From: Cordylochernes scorpioides
Lineage: Eukaryota > Arthropoda > Arachnida > Pseudoscorpiones > Chernetidae
Assembly: GCA_030710605.1 (NCBI GenBank)
Contig: CP092868.1
Coordinates: 28,220,011 to 28,284,010, forward strand
Length of the DNA: 64,000 nt
Reading direction: 5' to 3'
Positions 2,795-57,953 of this stretch are shown here, in pieces (position 1 is the stretch's first letter; each line of letters begins with the position of its first letter). The notes beneath the pieces were generated by a model. It was given only the letters and a program-made list of their open reading frames with translations. It did no database searches and had not been told where the DNA came from. The position numbers and the translations under genes were made by a program.

Positions 2795-3535
2795 TGATTA
2801 TTAATAAAGAGTTGGTGGACAAGTAGGTAACACCCTCGATTCCCGACAGCCATGAACCGGGATTGAATCCCACGTTAACATTTTGCTTAATATGCTTAAT
2901 ATAGCATAGCATAGCATGCTTAATAACCTTCACATTGTTGTAAATATCATAAACTAGGTTGCTCTTTTTGATCGGTACCTAATAATGTGATTTTGGAACA
3001 AGAATATATATACAGAGTCGATGGACGAGTAGTTAACACCATTCGATTCCCGACAACCATGAATCGTGATCGAGAATCCCACGTTAACATTTTGCTTAAT
3101 ATGCTTAATATAGCATAGCATAGCATGCTTAATAACCTTCACATTGTTGTAAATATCATAAACTAGGTTGCTCTTTTTGATCGGTACCTAATAATGTGAT
3201 TTTGGAACAAGAATATATATACAGAGTCGATGGACGAGTAGTTAACACCATTCGATTCCCGACAACCATGAATCGTGATCGAGAATCCCACGTTAACATT
3301 TTGCTTAATATGCTTAATATAGCATAGCTTAGCATAGCATAGCATGCTTAATAACCTTATCATTGTTGTAAATATCATAACTAGGTTGATCTTTTTGAGC
3401 GGTACCTAATAATGCGATTATGGAACAAGAATATATATATACAGAGTCGGTAGTTGAGTGGGTAACACCCTCGATTCCCGACAGCCATGAACCGGGATTG
3501 AATCCCACTTGGAAACTTTGTTTTTAATATGTAAA
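2795..3535 (+). repeat. Tandem array of a tRNA-like SINE unit (~210 bp, >3 copies)
   Basis: Units with spacing of about 210 and 218 bp start at GGAACAAGAATATATATACA. Each holds a tRNA-like block: an A-box-like GTTGAGTGGGTAAC and a B-box-like GGGATTGAATCCC. A short TAGCATAGCATAGCA microsatellite varies between units. The best-preserved tRNA-like block is at about 3450-3515. Apparent minus-strand ORFs here are artefacts of duplication. Confidence 0.7.
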
Positions 3536-7920: not shown

Positions 7921-8900
7921 ATATATTGAATAATGGTAACTGAAGAACAAACATAATCAATATACAATCATGATTTAATCATTTAAAAAGCTATCGAGGA
8001 GTGTTAAGCGATGTCAGAGAATTGATTAGGCTTTACGTCTAACATCAGTGATTCACCGAAAAATTGCCATTTCCATACATCAATATCACGCTTATTCACA
8101 CCCACCCACCCTTTCTATTACACGCCTCTTTAGCCATCCTAAATGGATTCTATTACACCAGTAGCTTTTGTTTAGTTATGATATCATTTTCTCTAAGATT
8201 TTTCTAAATTTAGCTTCTTTTTAGATAGCAAAGATTTTTTCCTTCTAAACTCATGAACAAAACTTAAGGAAAGGGTAACGTCTTTCAATTTTGCTGGTCA
8301 TCTTTATTTTTATTTTTGAAGGAGACAAAGTCAATTTTGTTCACATTTGGAAATAAATTGCCCTTGTTTTGTCTTTCATATGTTTATCTTTTTTGATTTT
8401 TCCACGTGGAATTTTGGTAAAGATTCGGTGTAGATTAGATAAGGCAAGATAATTGAACAGACTTTTAGATCATCTTTGCTGTGAACTACACTCATGGACA
8501 AACTTTAGTAGATTATTACTTAGACAATTTGCATAGTTTCAAGTCTTTTGTGTAAATATGGATTAATATTGCTTTAATAGAATAAATTACCATGACATCC
8601 CAACCTTTCTCTTAATTTTTCTACATCACATTATGATCCCTATTTGTTATTCTTACTATTTCTCTTTTTATTATTCCTAACGTCTCTCTCTCTCTCTCAT
8701 ATCTAAAACATCATAAGGTAAGTAGATTAATCTTTATATATAGTATGCGTCTTAGATCATTACTTTTAATTGTTTATATTTAATAATTTGTATTTATTCA
8801 ACTTTTCATTCTAAATTCTATTTTAGTCTATTTATCCGTTCATCTTTTCTATTTAATTCTTATCCTTTGCCTTCAATCATAATCAAAATATGATATAACA
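7921..8900. other. AT-rich intergenic, no gene seen
   Basis: Only short simple repeats (CT run near 8685) and AT-rich sequence are visible. Confidence 0.4.
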
Positions 8901-9260
8901 TTAAGAAAAAGGCATCTACCTATCGTGCAACTGAAAGTTGCTGATTGCTTACGCCCTCTATCGGAATAAATATAAACTATTCTCGTTGTTTTTTAATTAT
9001 TCCAGAATTGGCCAAATACTCATTCTTGATTAATCAAGAAAAGCTAACCACGGACGTGTTTCGGGCTGTTGGCCTTCATCAACGTGGTGCAAGCTCAACG
9101 ACCAAAAAATTAGCCATTCAAGGCATCCTGAAAAATCATGAAATAGGGCGCAAGCCATTAGCAAATTTCAGTTACACGATAAGGAGATGCCTTTTTCTTA
9201 ATTTATGCACCTTATCCCAGTACAATATTACAATTTTATATTTTCAGTTCAAATTTTAAT
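8901..9260. mobile_element. Hammerhead family 1 element in foldback arrangement
   Basis: The minus-strand element runs from TTAAGAAAAAGGCATCT at 8901 past a decayed ribozyme (9047-9088) to about 9155. It then turns into a plus-strand piece ending ACGATAAGGAGATGCCTTTT. The two ends are therefore inverted relative to each other. A 104-codon ORF here is spurious. Confidence 0.7.
9047..9088 (-). ncRNA. Hammerhead ribozyme, family 1, one core base changed
   Basis: On the minus strand stem I is ACCACG/CGTGGT, the box reads TTGATGA (core C3 to U), stem II AGGC/GCCC loops on CAACA, then GAAA, an ACACGT stem III and C before the cleavage site. C3 pairs with the catalytic G8, so this copy is probably inactive. 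Confidence 0.65.
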
Positions 9261-10890: not shown

Positions 10891-10895
10891 TATAG

Positions 10896-13800
10896 GGCGG
10901 TACACCTTTTTCAGTAGGAACATATTTGCATATCCCCTGTGATACTTGTTCGGCGGTAGAACTACTACAATAGGAAGGATACAGAGAAGTTTAGCATGGT
11001 CACTGAGATACTTGTTCAGGGGTACAACTACTACAATAAGAAGGATACAGAGAAGATTAGCATGGTCCCTGTGATACTTGTTCGGCGGTACAACTACTAC
11101 AATAAGAAGGATACAGAGAAGTTTAGCATGGCCCCTGTGATATTTGTTCAGTGGTACAACTAATACAATAGGAAGGATACAGAGAAGATTAGCATGGCCC
11201 CTGTGATACTTGTTCGGCGGTACAACTACTACAATAGGAAGGATACCGAGATGATTAGCAGGGTCCCTGTGATACTTGTTGGGCGTTACAACTACTAAAA
11301 TAGGAAGGATACAGAGAAGATTAGCATGGTCCCTGTGATACTTGTTGGGCGGTAAAACTACTACAATATGAAGGATACAGAGAAGATTAGCATGGCCCCT
11401 ATGATACTTGTTCGGCGGTACAAATACTACAATAGGAAGGATACAGAGAAGGTTATCATGGTCCCTGTGATACCAGTTCGGCGGTACAGCTACTACAATA
11501 GGAAGGATACAGAGAAGATTAGCATGGTCTCTGTGATACTTGTTGGGCGGTACAACTACTACAATAGGAAGGATACAGAGAAGATTAGCATGGTCTCTGT
11601 GATACTTGTTGGTCGGTACAACTACTACAATAGGAAGGATACAGAGAAGATTAGCATGGTCTCTGTGATACTTGTTGGGCGGTACAACTACTACAATAGG
11701 AAGGATACAGAGAAGATTAGCATGGTCTCTGTGATACTTGTTGGGCGGTAAAACTACTACAATAGGAAGGATACATAGAATATTAGCATGGCCCCTGTGT
11801 TACTTGTTCGGCGGTACAAATACTACAATAGGAAGGATACAGAGAAGATTAGCATGGCCCCTATGATACTTGTTCGGCGGTACAAATACTACAATAGGAA
11901 GGATACAGAGAAGGTTATCATGGTCCCTGTGATACCAGTTCGGCGGTACAGCTACTACAATAGGAAGGATACAGAGAATATTAGCATGGTCTCTGTGATA
12001 CCAGTTCGGCGGTACAACTACTACAATAGGAAGGATACAGAGAAGATTAGCATGGTCTCTGTGATACTTGTTGGTCGGTACAACTACTACAATAGGAAGG
12101 ATACAGAGAAGATTAGCATGGTCTCTGTGATACTTGTTGGGCGGTACAACTACTACAATAGGAAGGATACAGAGGAGATTAGCATGGTCTCTGTGATACT
12201 TGTTGGGCGGTACAACTACTACAATAGGAAGGATACATAGAATATTAGCATGGCCCCTGTGTTACTTGTTCGGCGATACAACTACTACAATAGGAAGGAT
12301 ACAGAGAGGATTAGCATGGTCCCTGTGATACTTGTTCGGCGGTACAACTACTACAATAGGAAGGATACAGAGAAGATTAGCATGGCCCCTGTGATACTTG
12401 TTGGGCGGTACAACTACTACAATAGGAAGGATACAGCGAAGATTAGCATGGTCCCTGTGATACTTGATAGGCGGTACAACTACTACAATAGGAAGGATAC
12501 AGCAAAGATTAGCATGGTCCCTGTGATACTTGTTGGGCGGTACAACTACTACAATAGGAAGGATACAGAAAAGATTAGCATGGCCCCTGTGATACTTGTT
12601 GGGCGGTACAACTACTACAATAGGAAGGATACAGCGAAGATTAGCATGGTCCCTGTGATACTTGTTGGGCGGTACAACTACTACAATAGGAAGGATACAG
12701 CGAAGATTAGCATGGTCCCTGTGATACTTGTTGGGCGGTACAACTACTACAATAGGAAGGATACAGCAAAGATTAGCATGGTCCCTGTGATACTTGTTAG
12801 GCGGTACAACTACTACAATAGGAAGGATACAGCGAAGATTAGCATGGCCCCTGTGATACTTGTTGGGCGGTACAACTACTACAATAGGAAGGATACAGAG
12901 AAGATTAGCATGGTCTCTGTGATACTTGTTGGTCGGTACAACTACTACAATAGGAAGGATACAGAGAAGATTAGCATGGTCTCTGTGATACTTGTTGGGC
13001 GGTACAACTACTACAATAGGAAGGATACAGAGAAGATTAGCATGGTCTCTGTGATACTTGTTGGGCGGTAAAACTACTACAATAGGAAGGATACATAGAA
13101 TATTAGCATGGCCCCTGTGTTACTTGTTCGGCGGTACAAATACTACAATAGGAAGGATACAGAGAAGATTAGCATGGCCCCTATGATACTTGTTCGGCGG
13201 TACAAATACTACAATAGGAAGGATACAGAGAAGGTTATCATGGTCCCTGTGATACCAGTTCGGCGGTACAGCTACTACAATAGGAAGGATACAGAGAATA
13301 TTAGCATGGTCTCTGTGATACCAGTTCGGCGGTACAACTACTACAATAGGAAGGATACAGAGAAGATTAGCATGGTCTCTGTGATACTTGTTGGTCGGTA
13401 CAACTACTACAATAGGAAGGATACAGAGAAGATTAGCATGGTCTCTGTGATACTTGTTGGGCGGTACAACTACTACAATAGGAAGGATACAGAGGAGATT
13501 AGCATGGTCTCTGTGATACTTGTTGGGCGGTACAACTACTACAATAGGAAGGATACATAGAATATTAGCATGGCCCCTGTGTTACTTGTTCGGCGATACA
13601 ACTACTACAATAGGAAGGATACAGAGAGGATTAGCATGGTCCCTGTGATACTTGTTCGGCGGTACAACTACTACAATAGGAAGGATACAGAGAAGATTAG
13701 CATGGCCCCTGTGATACTTGTTGGGCGGTACAACTACTACAATAGGAAGGATACAGCGAAGATTAGCATGGTCCCTGTGATACTTGATAGGCGGTACAAC

Positions 13801-15732
13801 TACTACAATAGGAAGGATACAGCAAAGATTAGCATGGTCCCTGTGATACTTGTTGGGCGGTACAACTACTACAATAGGAAGGATACAGAAAAGATTAGCA
13901 TGGCCCCTGTGATACTTGTTGGGCGGTACAACTACTACAATAGGAAGGATACAGCGAAGATTAGCATGGTCCCTGTGATACTTGTTGGGCGGTACAACTA
14001 CTACAATAGGAAGGATACAGCGAAGATTAGCATGGTCCCTGTGATACTTGTTGGGCGGTACAACTACTACAATAGGAAGGATACAGCAAAGATTAGCATG
14101 GTCCCTGTGATACTTGTTAGGCGGTACAACTACTACAATAGGAAGGATACAGCGAAGATTAGCATGGCCCCTGTGATACTTGTTGGGCGGTACAACTACT
14201 ACAATAGGAAGGATACAGCAAAGATTAGCATGGTCCCTGTGATACTTGTTCGGCGGTACAACTACTACAATAGGAAGGATACAGCAAAGATTAGCATGGT
14301 CCCTGTGATACTTGTTAGGCGGTACAACTACTACAATATGAAGGATACAGCAAAGATTAGCATGGTCCCTGTGATACTTGTTGGGCGGTACAACTACTAA
14401 AATAGGAAGGATACAGAGAAGATTAGCATGGCCTCTGTGATACTTGTTGGGCGGTACAACTACTACAATAGGAAGGATACAGCGAAGATTAGCATGGTCC
14501 CTGTGATACTTGTTGGGCGGTACAACTACTACAATAGGAAGGATACAGCAAAGATTAGCATGGTCCCTGTGATACTTGTTAGGCGGTACAACTACTACAA
14601 TAGGAAGGATACAGCAAAGATTAGCATGGTCCCTGTGATACTTGTTGGGCGGTACAACTACTACAATAGGAAGGATACAGCGAAGATTAGCATGGTCCCT
14701 GTGATACTTGTTGGGCGGTACAACTACTACAATAGGAAGGATACAGCAAAGATTAGCATGGTCCCTGTGATACTTGTTAGGCGGTACAACTACTACAATA
14801 GGAAGGATACAGCAAAGATTAGCATGGTCCCTGTGATACTTGTTGGGCGGTACAACTACTACAATAGGAAGGATACAGCGAAGATTAGCATGGTCCCTGT
14901 GATACTTGTTAGGCGGTACAACTACTACAATAGGAAGGATACAGCGAAGATTAGCATGGTCCCTGTGATACTTGTTGGGCGGTACAACTACTACAATAGG
15001 AAGGATACAGCGAAGATTAGCATGGTCCCTGTGATACTTGTTGGGCGGTACAACTACTACAATAGGAAGGATACAGAGAAGATTAGCATGGTCCCTGTGA
15101 TAGTTGTTGGGCGGTACAACTACTACAATAGGAAGGATACAGCAAAGATTAGCATGGCCCCTGTGATACCTGTTGTGCGGTACAACTACTACAATAGGAA
15201 GGATACAGCAAAGATTAGCATGGTCCCTGTGATACTTGTTCGGCGATACAACTACTACAATAGGAAGGATACAGAGAAGATTAGCATAGCCCCTGTGATA
15301 CTTGTTGGGCGGTACAACTACTACAATAGGAAGGATACAGCAAAGATTAGTATGGCCCCTGTGATACTTGTTGGGCGGTATAACTACTACAATAGGAAGG
15401 ATACAGAGAAGATTAGCATGGTCCCTGTGATACTTGTTGGGCGGTACAACTACTACAATAGGAAGGATACAGAGAAGATTAGCATGGTCCCTGTGATACT
15501 TGTTCAGTAGTACAACTACTACAATAGGAAGGATACAGAGAAGATTAGCATGGTCCCTGTGATACTTGTTCAGTAGTACAACTACTACAATAGGAAGGAT
15601 ACAGAGAAGATTAGCATGGCCCCTGTGATACTTGTTCGGCGGTACAACTACTACAATAGAAAGGATACAGAGAAGATTAGCATGGCCCCTGTGATACTTG
15701 TTGGGCGGTACAACTACTATAATAGGAAGGAT
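10896..15732 (+). repeat. Satellite of U6 snRNA-derived 66-bp monomers (~72 copies)
   Basis: Each monomer aligns to U6 snRNA from about nt 2 to nt 67. It reads TACTTG.TTCGGCGGTAC (U6 5' stem-loop, CTTGCTTCGGCAG..AC), then ACTACTACAATAGGAAG (U6 ATATACTAAAATTGGAAC), then GATACAGAGAAGATTAGCAT and GGCCCCTG, identical to U6 in the better copies. This covers the 5'-splice-site-pairing ACAGAGA box and the AGC triad and stops before the intramolecular stem-loop. All units point the same way. The first (10896-10940) is degenerate. Because 66 is divisible by 3, long ORFs appear on both strands (up to 722 codons); they are by-products. Confidence 0.9.
11530..14218 (+). repeat. 1,320-bp higher-order duplication in the U6-like satellite
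   Basis: The sequence from about 11530 to 12898 recurs at a shift of exactly 1,320 bases (20 x 66). I compared it block by block and saw no difference until about 14219. Private variants such as GATACATAGAATATT and GGTAAAACTAC recur at the same offset. This indicates a recent unequal exchange or amplification. Confidence 0.85.
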
Positions 15733-15734
15733 AT

Positions 15735-16200: not shown

Positions 16201-16289
16201 CCGGGGGTGGGGCAGGAAGTAGAGTGGTGAAGTTAGGTGGGTGGGTGGGGATTTAGCAACCTACCATTTAACTTCGTAAATTCTTCTAC

Positions 16290-17005
16290 GTGGCGGGCGG
16301 GAGAAGCAGCACAAGTAAGGGACTGTCCTGTAGTACGGTGTCGTGAGCCCCGAGCCGCTACGGTAACCATGAACAGGGAACTCTGAAATTTGACTGACAA
16401 ACGGGGCAATGGCACCCCCTTTTCCATGAAAGAAGTCCATGACTTGTCCTGCCCAGAAGTCCTCCTCTACGTGGCAGGCGAAAGAAGCAGCACAAGTAAG
16501 CGAATGTCCTGTAGGGCGAAGTACGGTGTCGTGAGCCCAGAGCCGCACGGTAACCATGAACAGAGAACTCTGAAATGTGGCTGACTAATGGGACAATGGC
16601 ACTCCTCTTTCCATGAAGGAAGTCCATGACTTGTCCTGCCCAGAAGTCCTCCTCTAAGTAGATGGCGGGATAAGCAGCACAAGTAAGCGAATGTCCTGTA
16701 GGGCGAAGTACGGTGTCGTGAGCCCCGAGCCGCTACGGTAACCATGAACAGAGAACTCTGAAATGTGGCTGACTAAACGGACAATAGAACCTCCTCTTTC
16801 CATGAAGGAAGTCCATTAGTGTGGTGGTGGCTTGTACCGTCCAGAAATCCTCCTCTACGTGGCGGAAGGGGAAAGCAGCACAAGTAAGGGACTACCCTGT
16901 AGTACGGTGTCGTGAGCCCCGAACCGCTACAGTAATCGTGAACAGGGAACTCTGAAATATGGCTGACGATCAGGCAATGACATCCCTCTTTCCATGAAGC
17001 AACAA
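16290..17005. repeat. GC-rich tandem repeat, ~186-194 bp, about four copies
   Basis: The anchor AACAG.GAACTCTGAAAT recurs near 16371, 16557, 16746 and 16940. Units include TACGGTGTCGTGAGCCC and GAAGCAGCACAAGTAAG. Base composition differs sharply from the AT-rich surroundings. Overlapping minus-strand ORFs of 64-98 codons repeat the same peptides in shifting frames, which argues against coding. Confidence 0.75.
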
Positions 17006-19194: not shown

Positions 19195-21563
19195 GTCAGA
19201 CACAGTCTTTATTAAGACACCAGTCTTATACAGATTCTCCTCTCTCATTGCCGGCTTACAACGATATCCTCACAATGATCAATCACCATCATGTAGTATG
19301 TCCTCTATATGTTACAAACACACAGTCTTTATTAAGACACCAGTCTTATACAGATTCTTCTCTCTCATTGCCAGCTTACAACGATATCCTGACGATGATC
19401 AATCACCATCATGTAGTATGTCCTCTATATGTTACAAACACAAATCCTTTATTAAGACACCAGTCTTATACGGATTCTCCTTTCTCATTGCCGGCTTACA
19501 ACGATATCCTCAGGATGATCAATCACCATCATGTAGTATGTCCTCTATATATTACAAACACACAGTCTTTATTAAGACACCAGTCTTATACATATTCTCC
19601 TCTCTCATTGCCGGCTTACAACGATATCCTCACAATAATCAATCACCATGATGTAGTATGTCCTCTATATGTTACAAACACACAGTCTTTATTAAGACAC
19701 CAGTCTTATACAGATTCTCCTCTCTCATTGCCGGCTTACAACGATATCCTCACAATAATCAATCACCATGATGTAGTATGTCCTCTATATGTTACAAACA
19801 CACAGTCTTTATTAAGACACCAGTCTTATACAGATTTTCCTCTCTCATTGCCGGCTTACAACGATATCCTCACGATGATCAATCACCATCATGTAGTATG
19901 TCCTCTATATGTTACAAACAAAAAGCCTTTATTAAGACACCAGTCTTATACAGATTCTCCTCTCTCATTGCCGGCTTACAACAATATCCTCACGATGATC
20001 AATCACCATCATGTAGTATGTCCTCTATATGTTACAAACACAGTCTTTATTAAGACACCAGTCTTATACAGATTCTCCTCTCTCATTGCCGGCTTACAAC
20101 GATATCCTCACGATGATCAATCACCATCATGTAGTATGTCCTCTATATGTTACAAAAACAGTCTTTATTAAGACACAAGTCTTATACAGATTCTCCTCTC
20201 TCATTGCCAGCTTACAACGATATCCTCACAATGATCAATCACCATCATGTAGTATGTCCTCTATATGTTACAAAAACAGTCTTTATTAAGACACAAGTCT
20301 TATACAGATTCTCCTCTCTCATTGCCGGCTTACAACGATATCCTCACGATGATCAATCACCATCATGTAGTATGTCCTCTATATGTTACAAAAACAGTCT
20401 TTATTAAGACACAAGTCTTATACAGATTCTCCTCTCTCATTGCCAGCTTACAACGATATCCTCACAATGATCAATCACCATCATGTAGTATGTCCTCTAT
20501 ATGTTACAAAAACAGTCTTTATTAAGACACAAGTCTTATACAGATTCTCCTTTCTCATTGCCGGCTTACAACGATATCCTCAGGATGATCAATCACCATC
20601 ATGTAGTATGTCCTCTATATATTACAAACACACAGACTTTATTAAGACACCAGTCTTATACAGATTCTCCTCTCTCATTGCCGGCTTACAACGATATCCT
20701 CACAATGATCAATCACCACAATGTAGTATGTTCTCTATATGTTACATACACAGTCTTTATTAAGACACCAGTCTTATACAGATTCTCCTCTCTCATTGCC
20801 GGCTTACAACGATATCCTCACAATGATCAATCACCATCATGTAGTGTGTCCTCTATATGTTACAAACACAGTCTTTATTAAGACACCAGTCTTATACAGA
20901 TTCTCCTCTCTCATTGCCGGCTTACAACGATATTCTCACAATAATCAATCACCATGATGTAGTATGTCCTCTATATGTTACAAACACACAGTCTTTATTA
21001 AGACACCAATCTTATACAGATTCTTCTCTCTCATTGCCAGCTTACAACGATATCCTCACGATGATCAATCACCATCATGTAGTATGTCCTCTATATGTTA
21101 CAAACACACAGTCTTTATTAAGACACCAGTCTTATACAGATTCTCCTCTCTCATTGCCAGCTTACAACAATATCCTCACGATGATCAATCACCATCATGT
21201 AGTATGTCCTCTATATGTTACAAACACAGTCTTTATTAAGACACCAGTCTTATACAGATTCTCCTCTCTCATTGCCGGCTTACAACGATATCCTCACAAT
21301 GATCAATCACCATCATGTAGTATGTCCTCTATATATGTTACAAACACAGTCTTTATTAAGACACCAGTCTTATACAGATTCTCCTCTCTCATTACCAGCT
21401 TACAACGATATCCTCACGATGATCAATCACCATCATGTAGTATGTCCTCTATATGTTACAAACACATAGTCTTTATTAAGACACCAGTCTTATACAGATT
21501 CTCCTCTCTCATTGCCGGCTTACAACGATATCCTCACAATGATCAATCACCATCATGTAGTGG
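19195..21563 (+). repeat. 118-120-bp satellite, about 20 copies
   Basis: Units run CAGTCTTTATTAAGACACCA, GTCTTATACAGATTCTCC, GCCGGCTTACAACGATATCC, ATCAATCACCATCATGTAG, CCTCTATATGTTACAAA. Copies are 118 or 120 bp depending on a CA indel. Each has the hairpin AAGAC-ACCA-GTCTT, which corresponds in position to a hairpin in dispersed family E. Many overlapping ORFs up to 307 codons result from repetition. Confidence 0.92.
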
Positions 21564-22479: not shown

Positions 22480-22712
22480 TTGTAAAATGATATTCGAAAA
22501 TTATCCCGCATGTGTTTCTTTTAAACGAAAAATCTAAATTTATTTTTAAGTACAAATAACGATTATTTTTAACCTTAGGGATGAAGTATGAAAAGATGAA
22601 TTGTGAAGAGTAATGATAAATGGAAAATAAAAGTGTCCAGGGATGGGAATCGAACCCAACAGTGTTCTGCTTACCGGACAGATGCTATGTCCACTAGGCT
22701 ACCCTGGACATA
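22480..22712 (-). mobile_element. tRNA-derived SINE family S2, copy a (full tRNA head)
   Basis: On the minus strand the head (22712 to about 22636) has a GTCCAGG/CCTGGAC acceptor stem, A box TAGCCTAGTGG and B box GGTTCGATTCC, with loop CCGGTAA. Position 33 is C, not the U of working tRNAs, so it is a SINE head and not a tRNA gene. The body ends with GTTTCTTTT..CGCATGTG and CGGGATAATTTTC. Confidence 0.75.
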
Positions 22713-42135: not shown

Positions 42136-42397
42136 TAAAACATGTATAAAAACGAACAAACTGCTCTTCACCTTATCTACGACTCTCTGGATTTTGCAGA
42201 AGTGAGACATCGTTTGTTCCCTGATCTAAATCCTTTAACTCTCTCACATCAGCCACTTTGTCTATATAATTTTTATGAACTCTGTAGAATAATAAATTTA
42301 TAAATAATCAATTCTAATTTCTATGTTTGTTGCTTTTTTTCCTCTGTATTAGACGCAAATATTTCAATATCGACCTGATGAATACATAAAATTTAAA

Positions 42398-42612
42398 AAA
42401 CTATAGAACAACATTTGAAAATTATCCCGCATGTGTTTCTTTTGAACGAAAAAAAATCGAAATTTATTTTAAGGAGAAATAACGACTATTTCCAACTTTC
42501 ATCCCTAAGGATAGAAATAATCGTTATTTCTCCTTAAAAATAATTTCGTTTTTTCGTTCAAAATAAACACATGCGGGATAATTTTCAAATGTCGTTCTAC
42601 AATCAAGGCCGA
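42398..42612. repeat. Inverted pair of S2 SINE tails
   Basis: AACATTTGAAAATTATCCCG and its inverse (CGGGATAATTTTCAAATGTC) face each other. Between them GAGAAATAACGA and CGTTATTTCTCC pair. These are tails of the S2 SINE without the tRNA head, forming a ~95-bp-arm palindrome. Confidence 0.7.
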
Positions 42613-42889
42613 ATTATATTTTATTATAAAAAAACTATATAAAACTATGATGTTTTAGAAAAGAAAACTTAATATTCGAGCACAAATATATATTTCTAAT
42701 TAAAAGAGAAGCATCAATAAAGAAACTGTTGTCCAGCAGAGTTATCGACAGGGATGTTATCAGGGGTTGATGGATTGGTGGTCAACTGGTCAAATATCTC
42801 AAGAAACAATAGCTGTGTTATCACAGAACGGATGCCTGTTCCTCTTCTTGATCACTCATACCTGCATCTCCCCCTATCTACCTCCTAGA

Positions 42890-43690
42890 TTGACATTAAT
42901 ACCTTCTAATAGGATAGAATAGGATAGGATAGACAATTCATACCTTCTAATAGGAAAGATAGAATAGGATAGACATTCATACCTTCTAATAGGAAAGATA
43001 GGATAGGATAGACATTCATATCTTCTAATAGGAAAGATAGGATAGGATAGACATTCATACCTTCTAATAGGAAAGATAGGATAGGATAGACATTCATACC
43101 TTCTAATAGGAAAGATAGGATAGAATAGACATTCATACCTTCTAATAGGAAAGATAGGATAGGATAGACATTCATACCTTCTAATAGGAAAGATAGGATA
43201 GGATAGACATTCATACCTTCTAATAGGATAGAATAGGATAGGATAGACAATTCATACCTTCTAATAGGAAAGATAGAATAGGATAGACATTCATACCTTC
43301 TAATAGGAAAGATAGGATAGAATAGACATTCATACCTTCTAATAGGAAAGATAGAATAGGATAGACATTCATACCTTCTAATAGGAAAGATAGGATAGAC
43401 ATTCATACCTTCTAATAGGATAGAATAGGATAGGATAGACAATTCATACCTTCTAATAGGAAAGATAGAATAGGATAGACATTCATACCTTCTAATAGGA
43501 AAGATAGGATAGAATAGACATTCATACCTTCTAATAGGAAAGATAGGATAGGATAGACATTCATACCTTCTAATAGGAAAGATAGGATAGGATAGACATT
43601 CATACCTTCTAATAGGAAAGATAGGATAGGATAGACATTCATACCTTCTAATAGGAAAGATAGGATAGGATTGACATTCATACCTTCTAA
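42890..43690. repeat. ~36-38-bp tandem repeat, about 20 copies
   Basis: The unit is ACATTCATACCTTCTAATAG plus GAAAGATAGGATAGGAT, with GATAG length variation. A block of about 225 bp starting AATAGGATAGAATAGG recurs within the array, a higher-order pattern. Minus-strand ORFs (178 and 118 codons) are artefacts. Confidence 0.9.
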
Positions 43691-48898: not shown

Positions 48899-49203
48899 CT
48901 ATTTTTTTCACATTGTGTTGCGGTCTCACGCAATTCTGGCCTTAACTACCCGTTTCATGATTTTTCAGGATGCCTTGAATGACCAGTTTTATGGTTGTTG
49001 AGGTACAGCTTGCACCACGCTGATGAGGGCCAACAGCCCGAAACTCGTCCGTGGTTAGCTTTCTTGATTAATCAAGAATGGGTATTTGGCCAATTCTGGA
49101 ATAATTAAAAAATCAACGATAATAGTTGATATTTATTCCGATAGATGGCGCAGACCATCAGTAACTTTCAGTTGCACGATAAGGAGATGCCCTTTTTTTC
49201 ATA
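48899..49203 (+). mobile_element. Hammerhead family 1 element, nearly full
   Basis: Runs from TTTTTTTCACATTGTG through CTCACGCAATTCTGGCCTTA, CATGATTTTTCAGGATGCC, the ribozyme (49014-49055), TTCTTGATTAATCAAGAAT, GATAGATGGCGC and CACGATAAGGAGATGCC. About 305 bp of the ~339-bp unit defined by the 57.6-kb copy. Confidence 0.75.
49014..49055 (+). ncRNA. Hammerhead ribozyme, family 1, complete core
   Basis: Stem I ACCACG (49014-49019) pairs perfectly with CGTGGT (49050-49055). Box CTGATGA is at 49020-49026. Stem II GGGC/GCCC closes on CAACA. GAAA is at 49040-49043. Stem III is the minimal A-C/G-T pair set with loop TC, and C49049 is the cleavage base. Every invariant position is present. The two-pair stem III suggests it works as a dimer, as described for metazoan retrozyme and Penelope hammerheads. 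Confidence 0.85.
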
Positions 49204-49345: not shown

Positions 49346-49542
49346 GCTTTGTGTTTGATAGTGAATACTGTATCTATTGTATACTGATTTTACAGAGAGA
49401 TTGAAATTTCTTTATTACATCTCTCGTTCATATGAGATTATATAAGATTGAATACAAAATTGAATAAATATAAATCAATAAGACACACTATATATAGAGA
49501 GAAATAGAGAGAAAGACAATTTTGACAATTGACATATTTTTT

Positions 49543-49800
49543 AGCCTAGTGGACATGGCATCTGCCCGGTAAGCGGAACATTGTGGGTTCGATTCCCATC
49601 CCTGGACACTTTTATTTTTCCGTTCGTCATTACTCTTCATAATTCATCCTTTCATACCTCATCCAAAAAGGTTAGAAATAGTCGATATTTCACCTTGAAA
49701 TAAAATTTTGATTTTATCGTTGAAAAGAAACTCATGCGGTGTAACTTCAAGTGTCGTTTTACAATCACAGGCCGCAGTGTATTATATTGTAACATATTTT
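49543..49800 (+). mobile_element. tRNA-derived SINE family S2, copy b
   Basis: Begins within the tRNA head (GCCTAGTGGACATGGCATC), keeps CCGGTAAGC and B box GGTTCGATTCC, then the body CCGTTCGTCATTACTCTTCA and GTGTAACTTCAAGTGTCG. The acceptor-stem 5' half is missing. Confidence 0.75.
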
Positions 49801-50215: not shown

Positions 50216-50473
50216 ACAGTAATTCCACTCCCTTTCCCCATGTGCACGCGAGTCTTTGTGTGAAAAGGGGAATTTGAAAAACTAGAATGTTTGTTTTCAA
50301 AATGCATAGCTATAAAGAAATAAAACTATTTTTCTATCTGTGCTTACCAATCAAAATTAATCAATTTGTAAATAGCAGAGAGAATTATCATAGATTTAAC
50401 TATTTTTGTAGATATATTTATGATTATCTTTCTGGCCTGAAAGGTTCAGGTTCCTAATATATATTATTAAAAA

Positions 50474-50745
50474 GCCTAGTGGACATGGCATCTGCCCGGT
50501 AAGCGGAACATTGTGGGTTCGATTTCCATCCCTGGACACTTTTAGTTTTCCGTTCATCATTACTCTTCATAATTCACCCTTTCATACCTTATCCAAAAAG
50601 ATTAGAAATAGTCAATATTTCACCTTGAAATAAAATTTTGATTTTTCATTGAAAAGAAACTCCTGCGGTGTAACTTCAAGTTTCGTTTTGCAATCACAGG
50701 CCGCAATGTATTATATAATATATATAATATATATTATTGTTTCTC
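50474..50745 (+). mobile_element. tRNA-derived SINE family S2, copy c
   Basis: Near-identical to 49543-49800 and truncated at almost the same base. The shared breakpoint (GCCTAGTGG) argues for copying of an already truncated master or a local duplication. Confidence 0.75.
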
Positions 50746-51514: not shown

Positions 51515-51985
51515 AAATTTAAGAAAAAAGGCATCTCCTGTTCGTAAAATTAAAAGTTGCAAGCCATCAGTAACTTCGAAAAATCACGTGAGAACGCTCT
51601 TGCAAACCTCAGAACAATTTTTAATGCCTTGCCGAAGTGTCTATTTTTTTATATAAATATGAATGCCGGCCAGGCAGCCTCTATATTTACGATAACTTTT
51701 AGTTCCACAATCAGGAAATGCCTTTTTTTCTTAATTTATCCACCTGATCCAAGTTCAATTTCACTTTTGTGAAAAAATAGTACAAATTTATACGCCCGAA
51801 ACGCGTCAGTGGTTAGCTTTTCTTGATTAATCAAGAATAGGTATTTGGCCAATTCTGTAATAATTAAAAATCAACAAGAATAGTTGATATTTATTCCGAT
51901 AGATGGAGCAAACCATCAGAAACTCTCAGTTGCACGATAGGGAGATGCCTTTTTTTATAATAAATTTCACTTTTGTGCTATTTTT
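51515..51985 (+). mobile_element. Two hammerhead family 1 relatives in tandem, ribozyme half lost
   Basis: 51700-51785 is a diverged family 1 end (CACAATCAGGAAATGCCTTT). At 51793 a second copy starts mid-ribozyme (CCCGAAACGCGTCAGTGGTT) and continues with the normal family 1 tail to 51955. The CTGATGA box is missing. Between 51570 and 51690 are family 2 traces (CACGTGAGAACGCTCTTGCA). Confidence 0.55.
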
Positions 51986-57591: not shown

Positions 57592-57953
57592 TTAAGAAAA
57601 AGGCATCTCCTTATCATGCAACTGAAAGTTGCTGATGGCTTGCGCCATCTATCGGAATAAATATCAACTATTCTCGTTGATTTTTAATTATTCCAGAATT
57701 GGCCAAATACCCATTCTTGATTAATCAAGAAAAGCTAACCACGGACGCGTTTCGGGCTGTTGGCCCTCATCAGCGTGGTGCAAGCTGTACCTCAACGACC
57801 AAAAAATTTGGTCATTAAGGCATCCTGAAAAATCATGAAACGGGTAGTTAAGGCTAGATTTGCGTGAGAACGCTACACAATGTGAAAAAATAGTACAAAT
57901 GTGACATTGTACTGGGATAAGGTGCATAAATTAAGAAAAAGGCATCTCCTTAT
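57592..57953 (-). mobile_element. Hammerhead family 1 element: 339-bp unit plus 23-bp terminal overlap
   Basis: TTAAGAAAAAGGCATCTCCT followed by TAT occurs at 57592 and again at 57931, so the insertion is one unit (339 bp) plus a 23-bp direct repeat of its start. This is what reverse transcription running past one turn of a circular or concatemeric RNA would leave. The ribozyme is at 57738-57779. No protein is encoded. It matches the general plan of metazoan retrozymes and Penelope terminal repeats. Confidence 0.8.
57738..57779 (-). ncRNA. Hammerhead ribozyme, family 1, complete core
   Basis: Minus strand: stem I ACCACG (57779-57774) pairs with CGTGGT (57743-57738); box CTGATGA (57773-57767); stem II GGGC/GCCC with loop CAACA; GAAA (57753-57750); stem III ACGCGT (57750-57745), a perfect 6-base palindrome; C57744 is the cleavage base. 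Two copies could pair through ACGCGT to give a strong stem III, the dimeric mode proposed for such ribozymes. Confidence 0.88.

Follow-up and report, generated by a model that had tools for sequence, protein, structure and literature searches.

A tandem array of 66-bp units derived from U6 small nuclear RNA (snRNA) lies in the window analysed here, a stretch of 64,000 nucleotides from the pseudoscorpion Cordylochernes scorpioides (contig C6, positions 28220011-28284010, of a 24-contig assembly totalling 2.62 Gb). This array is very probably an old, decayed member of a dispersed family of non-autonomous retroposons made from U6. The family itself thus combines the dispersal of a retroposon with a body resembling a satellite, and its other copies follow a common plan, in which a true U6 5’ end is followed by 1-74 units and then by the remaining U6 sequence, which ends near nt 100, at about nt 97-103. 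The copies are scattered, have constant ends and lie in different flanks, as retroposons do, and target-site duplications were found at the level of the family, but not at the copy in the window.

Structure and U6 origin of the array in the window

Tandem Repeats Finder (TRF) detects a period of 66 bp at 10935-15733 of the window, with 72.7 copies, 94% matches and 0% indels. The initial annotation had described about 72 head-to-tail monomers, which agrees with the 72 full units and one partial unit found. The full units, cut from 10938, occupy 10938..15689 on the + strand; 38 of them are distinct and their mean pairwise identity is 93.0%, so that homogeneous head-to-tail units extend over kilobases, as in a satellite. 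The term satellite, used initially, is thus correct for the tandem array and incomplete for its context, the array being one among hundreds of dispersed copies.

Scanning the window with Rfam at gathering score yields 16 U6 matches (RF00026; 44.3-49.0 bits, cut-off 44), all within the array and covering model positions 1-65, 1-69 or 1-105. The best match is the unit at 15562..15627 (+), with 49.0 bits and an E value of 2.7e-9, and the unit at 12328..12393 (+; 48.8 bits, model 1-65) is also among the most U6-like. Most of the 72 units match RF00026 below the gathering cut-off, and a scan of the whole window at E<=1 gives no U6 match beyond the array. In one good unit, the first 40 nt reach a score of 18 against a U6 sequence (shuffle maximum 14) and of 14 against the Rfam consensus (shuffle maximum 13), with 2000 shuffles in each case. 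Chance similarity to U6 is ruled out by the covariance scan and the shuffle tests and, together with the comparison with host U6, these support the origin proposed initially. Since the 5’ 40 nt exceed the shuffle maxima, the resemblance is not confined to the 28-base U6 core, and the Rfam, shuffle and host U6 results likewise do not bear out a non-U6 parent repeat as the source of that core. The core is intact in 4 of the 72 units, and GATACAGAGAAGATTAGCAT in 27.

The unit had been assigned to U6 nt ~2-67, with a 5’ stem-loop carrying substitutions. The match to U6 holds, but in host numbering the unit comprises nt ~8-68 plus about 5 junction bases, breaking off at nt ~68. The loop CTTGTTCGGCGGTACA of the better units is identical to that of the host’s own U6, so the supposed substitutions there fall away, and the window unit has 5 substitutions, at nt 24-40. 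The full length, 3’ internal stem-loop, U tail and TATA at -30 of a U6 gene are not found in the unit. A signal of selection, taken from an uneven distribution of fixed changes (6/33 versus 0/26, p=0.03), was dropped, having been counted against a fly-type U6; no selection is claimed, because relative to host U6 the 5’ loop is unchanged and the five changes fall at nt 24-40.

The 5’ edge of the array is formed by a decayed first unit (GGGCGGTACA...TAGGAA..., 10894..10937, +), recognised by a local match to the unit consensus with a score of 16 (maximum of 2000 shuffles, 15). At the other edge, a partial last unit (15690..15734, +) stops after GGATA, and the U6 3’ part of other copies is not recognisable there; a search of the array flanks for this part did not find it, and the weak resemblance of the 3’ flank to the host U6 3’ end was equalled by 83 of 2000 shuffles. 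Within the array, an exact 1368-bp match at an offset of 1320 bp (20 units) joins 11531..12898 and 12851..14218, both on the + strand, and represents either a recent internal tandem duplication or an assembly artefact. When this duplication is left aside, all of the first 7 units and 8 of the last 10 have no exact twin, compared with 27 of the 55 between them; inner units are therefore more often twinned than edge units, a pattern consistent with unequal exchange having homogenised the interior.

The array differs from the sampled family consensus at 5 consensus positions. It shares the unit, the junction and the diagnostic bases with the dispersed family, and on these grounds is classified as a member by descent. 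The way in which this particular copy was inserted would follow from its family membership only.

The dispersed family and the ends of its copies

A genome search for further arrays, as proposed in the initial annotation, revealed many array loci. A 23-mer specific to derived units has 9972 + 9957 = 19,929 matches with at most one mismatch, while its reversed control has 0; at 66 bp per matched unit the family amounts roughly to 1.3 Mb, more diverged units being missed. A 39-mer joining the true U6 5’ end to derived bases identifies 412 + 454 = 866 element 5’ ends, and a 60-mer joining a derived unit to the U6 3’ part identifies 394 + 364 = 758 element 3’ ends (controls 0). Both counts include single-unit and tandem full-length copies, so that the number of arrays is below them. 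Among the matches listed, about 100 of each kind, 5’ and 3’ ends fall on at least 22 of the 24 contigs. Derived-type U6 5’ ends also occur in two exact tandem series, with 6 copies at 113-bp spacing in C1:7578492-7579095 and 4 copies at 121-bp spacing in C6:97158716-97159117.

The 23-mer matches listed, from the first 72 Mb of contig C1, fall into 18 array loci that form an unselected sample, in which four loci represent two pairs of segmental duplicates. These arrays have 6 to 74 units each; U6 nt 1-5 is the starting point of 12 of the 17 whose 5’ end lies within the stretch, and 10 of the 18 (9 in another search) end in U6 sequence reaching nt 97-107. Four of nine further loci, chosen by their 3’ end (L074-L082), hold one unit, and three of these (L076, L079 and L080) have both U6 ends.

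Direct repeats were scored at 21 loci, which are the 29 loci less two cut at the 5’ side, two segmental duplicates and four in CT microsatellites. Repeats of 12-15 bp scoring at least 12 border the element at 8 of them (L056, L057, L059, L065, L068, L069, L079 and L081; for L065 the 3’ search window was moved by hand past an internal deletion), whereas none of the 420 mismatched pairs has them. Lowering the threshold to 9 gives 10 of 21 loci and 11 of 420 pairs. Such repeats of score 12 or more flank elements as long as 37 units (L065) and 74 units (L057). Six of the eight duplicated targets start with TCTA or TCCA and lie beside U6 GTTC. Pairing of the cut target end with U6 around nt 100 would lead to this pattern, and copies within CT repeats fit such pairing too. 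In complete copies the U6 3’ sequence is followed by the target repeat, with no poly(A). When element borders are compared between loci, nothing is common to them but U6, segmental duplicates excepted, and other interspersed repeats occur farther out.

Host U6 genes, mosaics and array growth

In a genome survey of U6, 48 of 365,745 first-look candidates were scored, and 48 of 49 matches lie above the cut-off. A cluster on contig C20 contains U6 copies (L010-L013 and L033) with identical first 100 nt and a TATATAAG box (TATAAAAG in L013) that starts 30 bp upstream; a further copy elsewhere on C20 (L014) has the same U6 sequence, without the upstream box. A second U6 type starts with GTACACGCTTG, and complete element 5’ ends start in the same way. 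One locus of this second type, L030, has the TATATAAG box and is a likely U6 gene, and it is without the upstream block of the C20 copies (13/22 mismatched).

Several loci combine different RNAs or unit types. At one locus, L008 (also L035), a U4 snRNA fragment comes first; two host-type U6 units follow, then units that are derived or partly so, and finally one host-type unit and a full-length U6. The U4 fragment of L008 (1998-2072, -; 47.5 bits, cut-off 46) is fused directly to the U6 5’ end. Mosaics of this sort are expected of a reverse transcriptase jumping between U6, derived U6 and U4 RNAs, and amplification at the DNA level alone does not account for the U4. The arrays of L061, L073 and L077 have a host-type first unit and then mostly derived units. 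Within CT repeats, L028 (2053-2396) contains a head-to-tail trimer of full-length host-type U6 with joints of 15 and 14 T, and L016 (2007-2218) a dimer of the same kind with a joint of 6 T; both multimers look like products of template jumping on tailed U6 RNA.

Unlinked loci have exact runs of up to 242 bp in common, which is over three units, and such runs reach 132 bp in 18 of 406 locus pairs, one of these being the L069/L070 duplicate. Long exact runs in unlinked loci suggest that a multi-unit source of the arrays probably existed. The segmental duplicates, which lie tens of kilobases apart, have 16 and 12 units (L063/L064) and 24 and 31 units (L069/L070), hence array length changed after duplication.

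Transcription

No A box of a SINE-type (short interspersed nuclear element) internal promoter for RNA polymerase III (Pol III) is present in the consensus of the window array, and its best B box has 3 mismatches; upstream of the array, the best match to TATATAAG also has 3 mismatches. The sense strand of the window array is free of runs of four T, and the same is true, before the U6 end, of 23 of 29 element stretches, including that of the window. Pol III could therefore pass, given an upstream promoter. The 27 element loci whose 5’ end lies in the stretch include a single one, L077, with a TATA-like box (one mismatch) at the position found in genes: TATATAAT precedes, by 30 bp, a complete U6 5’ end, after which come one host-type unit and four derived ones. 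This locus is possibly a candidate transcribed copy, or else the box is there by chance.

A protein-coding array was considered and rejected. Two frames are stopless, without an excess of synonymous changes, and stop variants are not avoided (5 observed and 1.7 expected in frame +1; 2 observed and 0.8 expected in frame -2).

Proposed mechanism and alternative explanations

The following sequence of events could give rise to the family. A reverse transcriptase of the LINE type (long interspersed nuclear element) would take U6 RNA in trans and start synthesis around U6 nt 100, primed by target ends able to pair with GUUC. On reaching the 5’ end of a template, the enzyme would then switch to the following one at an internal or 3’ position, leaving tandem copies, and a multi-unit source would subsequently be copied again, with the arrays being lengthened and homogenised in place by unequal exchange. 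Template jumping of this kind is the likely origin of the tandem body, judging from the U4/U6 mosaic and the host-type U6 multimers with oligo-T joints. According to the available part of Doucet et al. 2015 (PMC4476161), LINE-driven, 3’-truncated U6 copies, target duplications and template switching on U6 are already on record. It is possible, but rather unlikely, that whole arrays also move as RNA, in which case multi-kilobase transcripts would be reverse-transcribed and inserted intact, and satellites would disperse by retroposition; the absence of four-T runs before the U6 end in most element stretches would permit such a transfer, and elements of 37 and 74 units are among those with strong direct repeats.

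Several observations weigh against a retroposon origin. No proven master copy was found, nor was a LINE partner, although none was searched for. Duplications scoring 12 are missing from 13 of the 21 tested loci, and of the loci scoring 8-10, L066 and L074 have the repeats at the element ends, while that of L080 is A/T-rich and off the boundary. The frequency of a kept 3’ end cannot be estimated from the nine loci that were selected by it. L077 lies in a CT repeat and, as is the case for L030, is without the C20 upstream block (11/22 mismatched). Unit similarity in sampled pairs is 0.925 within and 0.899 between loci, a difference in the same direction at 20 of 21 loci, and for 296 of 524 units the nearest relative belongs to the same locus; arrays thus also grew or were homogenised in place, and much of their length may postdate insertion. 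The copy in the window has no target-site duplication at its ends, the best direct repeat scoring 5 (TTTTT), and it has neither a true U6 5’ end nor a clear U6 3’ end. A lack of target duplication and true ends is nevertheless expected of an old copy, which the window array probably is.

The similarity of units within loci would also be produced if the family were an ordinary satellite, that is, a truncated U6 pseudogene amplified as DNA by unequal exchange or rolling circles and scattered by recombination. The exact 1320-bp internal duplication, the rarity of exact twins among edge units and the missing target duplication are all compatible with this explanation for the window array. It is improbable, however, given the many copies with a start at U6 nt 1-5 and an end at nt ~97-107, the strong direct repeats at 8 of 21 loci, and the single-unit copies with both U6 ends. 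It is accordingly disfavoured for the family, but could apply to lengthening of the window array at a late stage. A still weaker and very improbable candidate is a carrier, either a DNA transposon or a Helitron-like element, that holds and spreads the U6 array. Oysters are reported to have elements of this kind with internal tandem arrays, in the accessible part of PMC7492417, and the window is rich in palindromic repeats resembling miniature inverted-repeat transposable elements. The loci, however, share no common border sequence, apart from segmental duplicates, and none exists in the 18 unselected arrays; no 13-mer inverted match was found between the two flanks of the window array, and in many copies both ends are made by the U6 sequence itself.

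There is an equally slight chance that the array is functional, in that its sense RNA would mimic U6 and act as a decoy towards U4, U2 or 5’ splice sites, or that its antisense RNA would pair with U6. AGC is retained in 69 and ACAGAGA in 36 of the 72 window units, and ACAGAGA in 374 of 463 sampled units at other loci, while the lack of T runs of four or more in the window sense strand would let Pol III pass. The U6 core, however, is under no extra constraint, being as variable as the rest of the unit (14/26 and 17/33 sites, Fisher p=1), and single units fold like shuffles: 47 of 71 are less stable than the shuffle mean (z>0) and none has z below -2. Moreover, no TATATAAG box lies upstream of the window array and neither open frame shows coding constraint. 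The suggestion in the initial annotation that array transcripts might pair with splice sites or U6 partners gains no support from the intactness of ACAGAGA, the variability of the core or the folding, and a splicing role of the array, for which no case was found, appears unsupported. By its behaviour, the retroposon family would be a genomic parasite of the U6 RNA supply, with no evident cellular function.

Other features of the window

The window starts with the C-terminal part of a VDAC-type porin (15-383, +; Pfam Porin_3, E 4e-23), open to the stop codon. Two motifs resembling hammerhead ribozymes (RF02275), at 49004-49069 (+) and 57724-57789 (-), score 24.5 and 26.5 bits and so fall short of the cut-off of 52; they have a CTGATGA...GAAAC...GTC core and belong to a dispersed repeat present also at 8882-9143 and 51794-51954. 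Another dispersed repeat contains a tRNA-Thr-like sequence (22633-22709 (-), 42390-42603, 49542-49765 and 50473-50694) and is probably a tRNA-derived SINE family. Many more tandem arrays occur, for example at 2804-3498, 16285-16999, 19200-21561 and 42888-43690, with periods of 209, 187, 120, 39 bp and more, and none of them matches Rfam at gathering score.

Comparison with known systems

The U6 family links the birth of a satellite to the reverse transcription of a spliceosomal RNA. Likely intermediates are found in one genome, including single U6 retrocopies, oligo-T multimers, a U4/U6 mosaic, and short and long arrays, and their coexistence allows a direct test of template jumping as an origin of satellites. 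On the practical side, about twenty thousand U6-like units can mislead the annotation of U6 and the normalisation of small-RNA data in genomes of this sort.

Satellites derived from 5S rDNA come from a gene family that is already tandem. The target-site duplications of the U6 family, unlike these satellites, point to insertion as an element. The 5S rDNA-derived satellites, which appear in titles cited by PMC12692304, are likewise tandem repeats from a small-RNA gene. Section 4.1 of this 2025 review names, as sources of satellites, transposable elements, rDNA spacers, micro- and minisatellites and older satellites, with no snRNA among them. In the titles and abstract openings covered by the literature search, which left subscription papers mostly outside, there was neither a U6-derived satellite nor a U6 retroposon with a tandem body. 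An ancient repeat of primates (Hasnaoui et al. 2009) is, judging from the title, likewise derived from U6.

U6 retropseudogenes, as presented in the available part of PMC4476161, are also U6-derived and LINE-mediated, with target-site duplications, frequent 3’ truncation and microhomology at the 3’ junction. They are described there as single dispersed copies, whereas here the examined loci hold 1-74 in-phase truncated units, and the present family, unlike them, has shared diagnostic substitutions and 758-866 recognisable ends genome-wide.

The heads of SINEU elements, in the description ascribed to Kojima in 2015, are reportedly other snRNAs, with unrelated bodies and tails. The family described here is U6 throughout and has a tandem-array body. 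To judge from the accessible parts of the sources, SINEU (PMC8010984, PMC5753468) and SVA (PMC13174262) are the nearest retroposon classes to the U6 family. The former is likewise a retroposon class from snRNA, and the latter is likewise a non-autonomous retroposon with internal tandem repeats of variable number (VNTR), but is a composite of SINE-R, VNTR and Alu and contains no snRNA.

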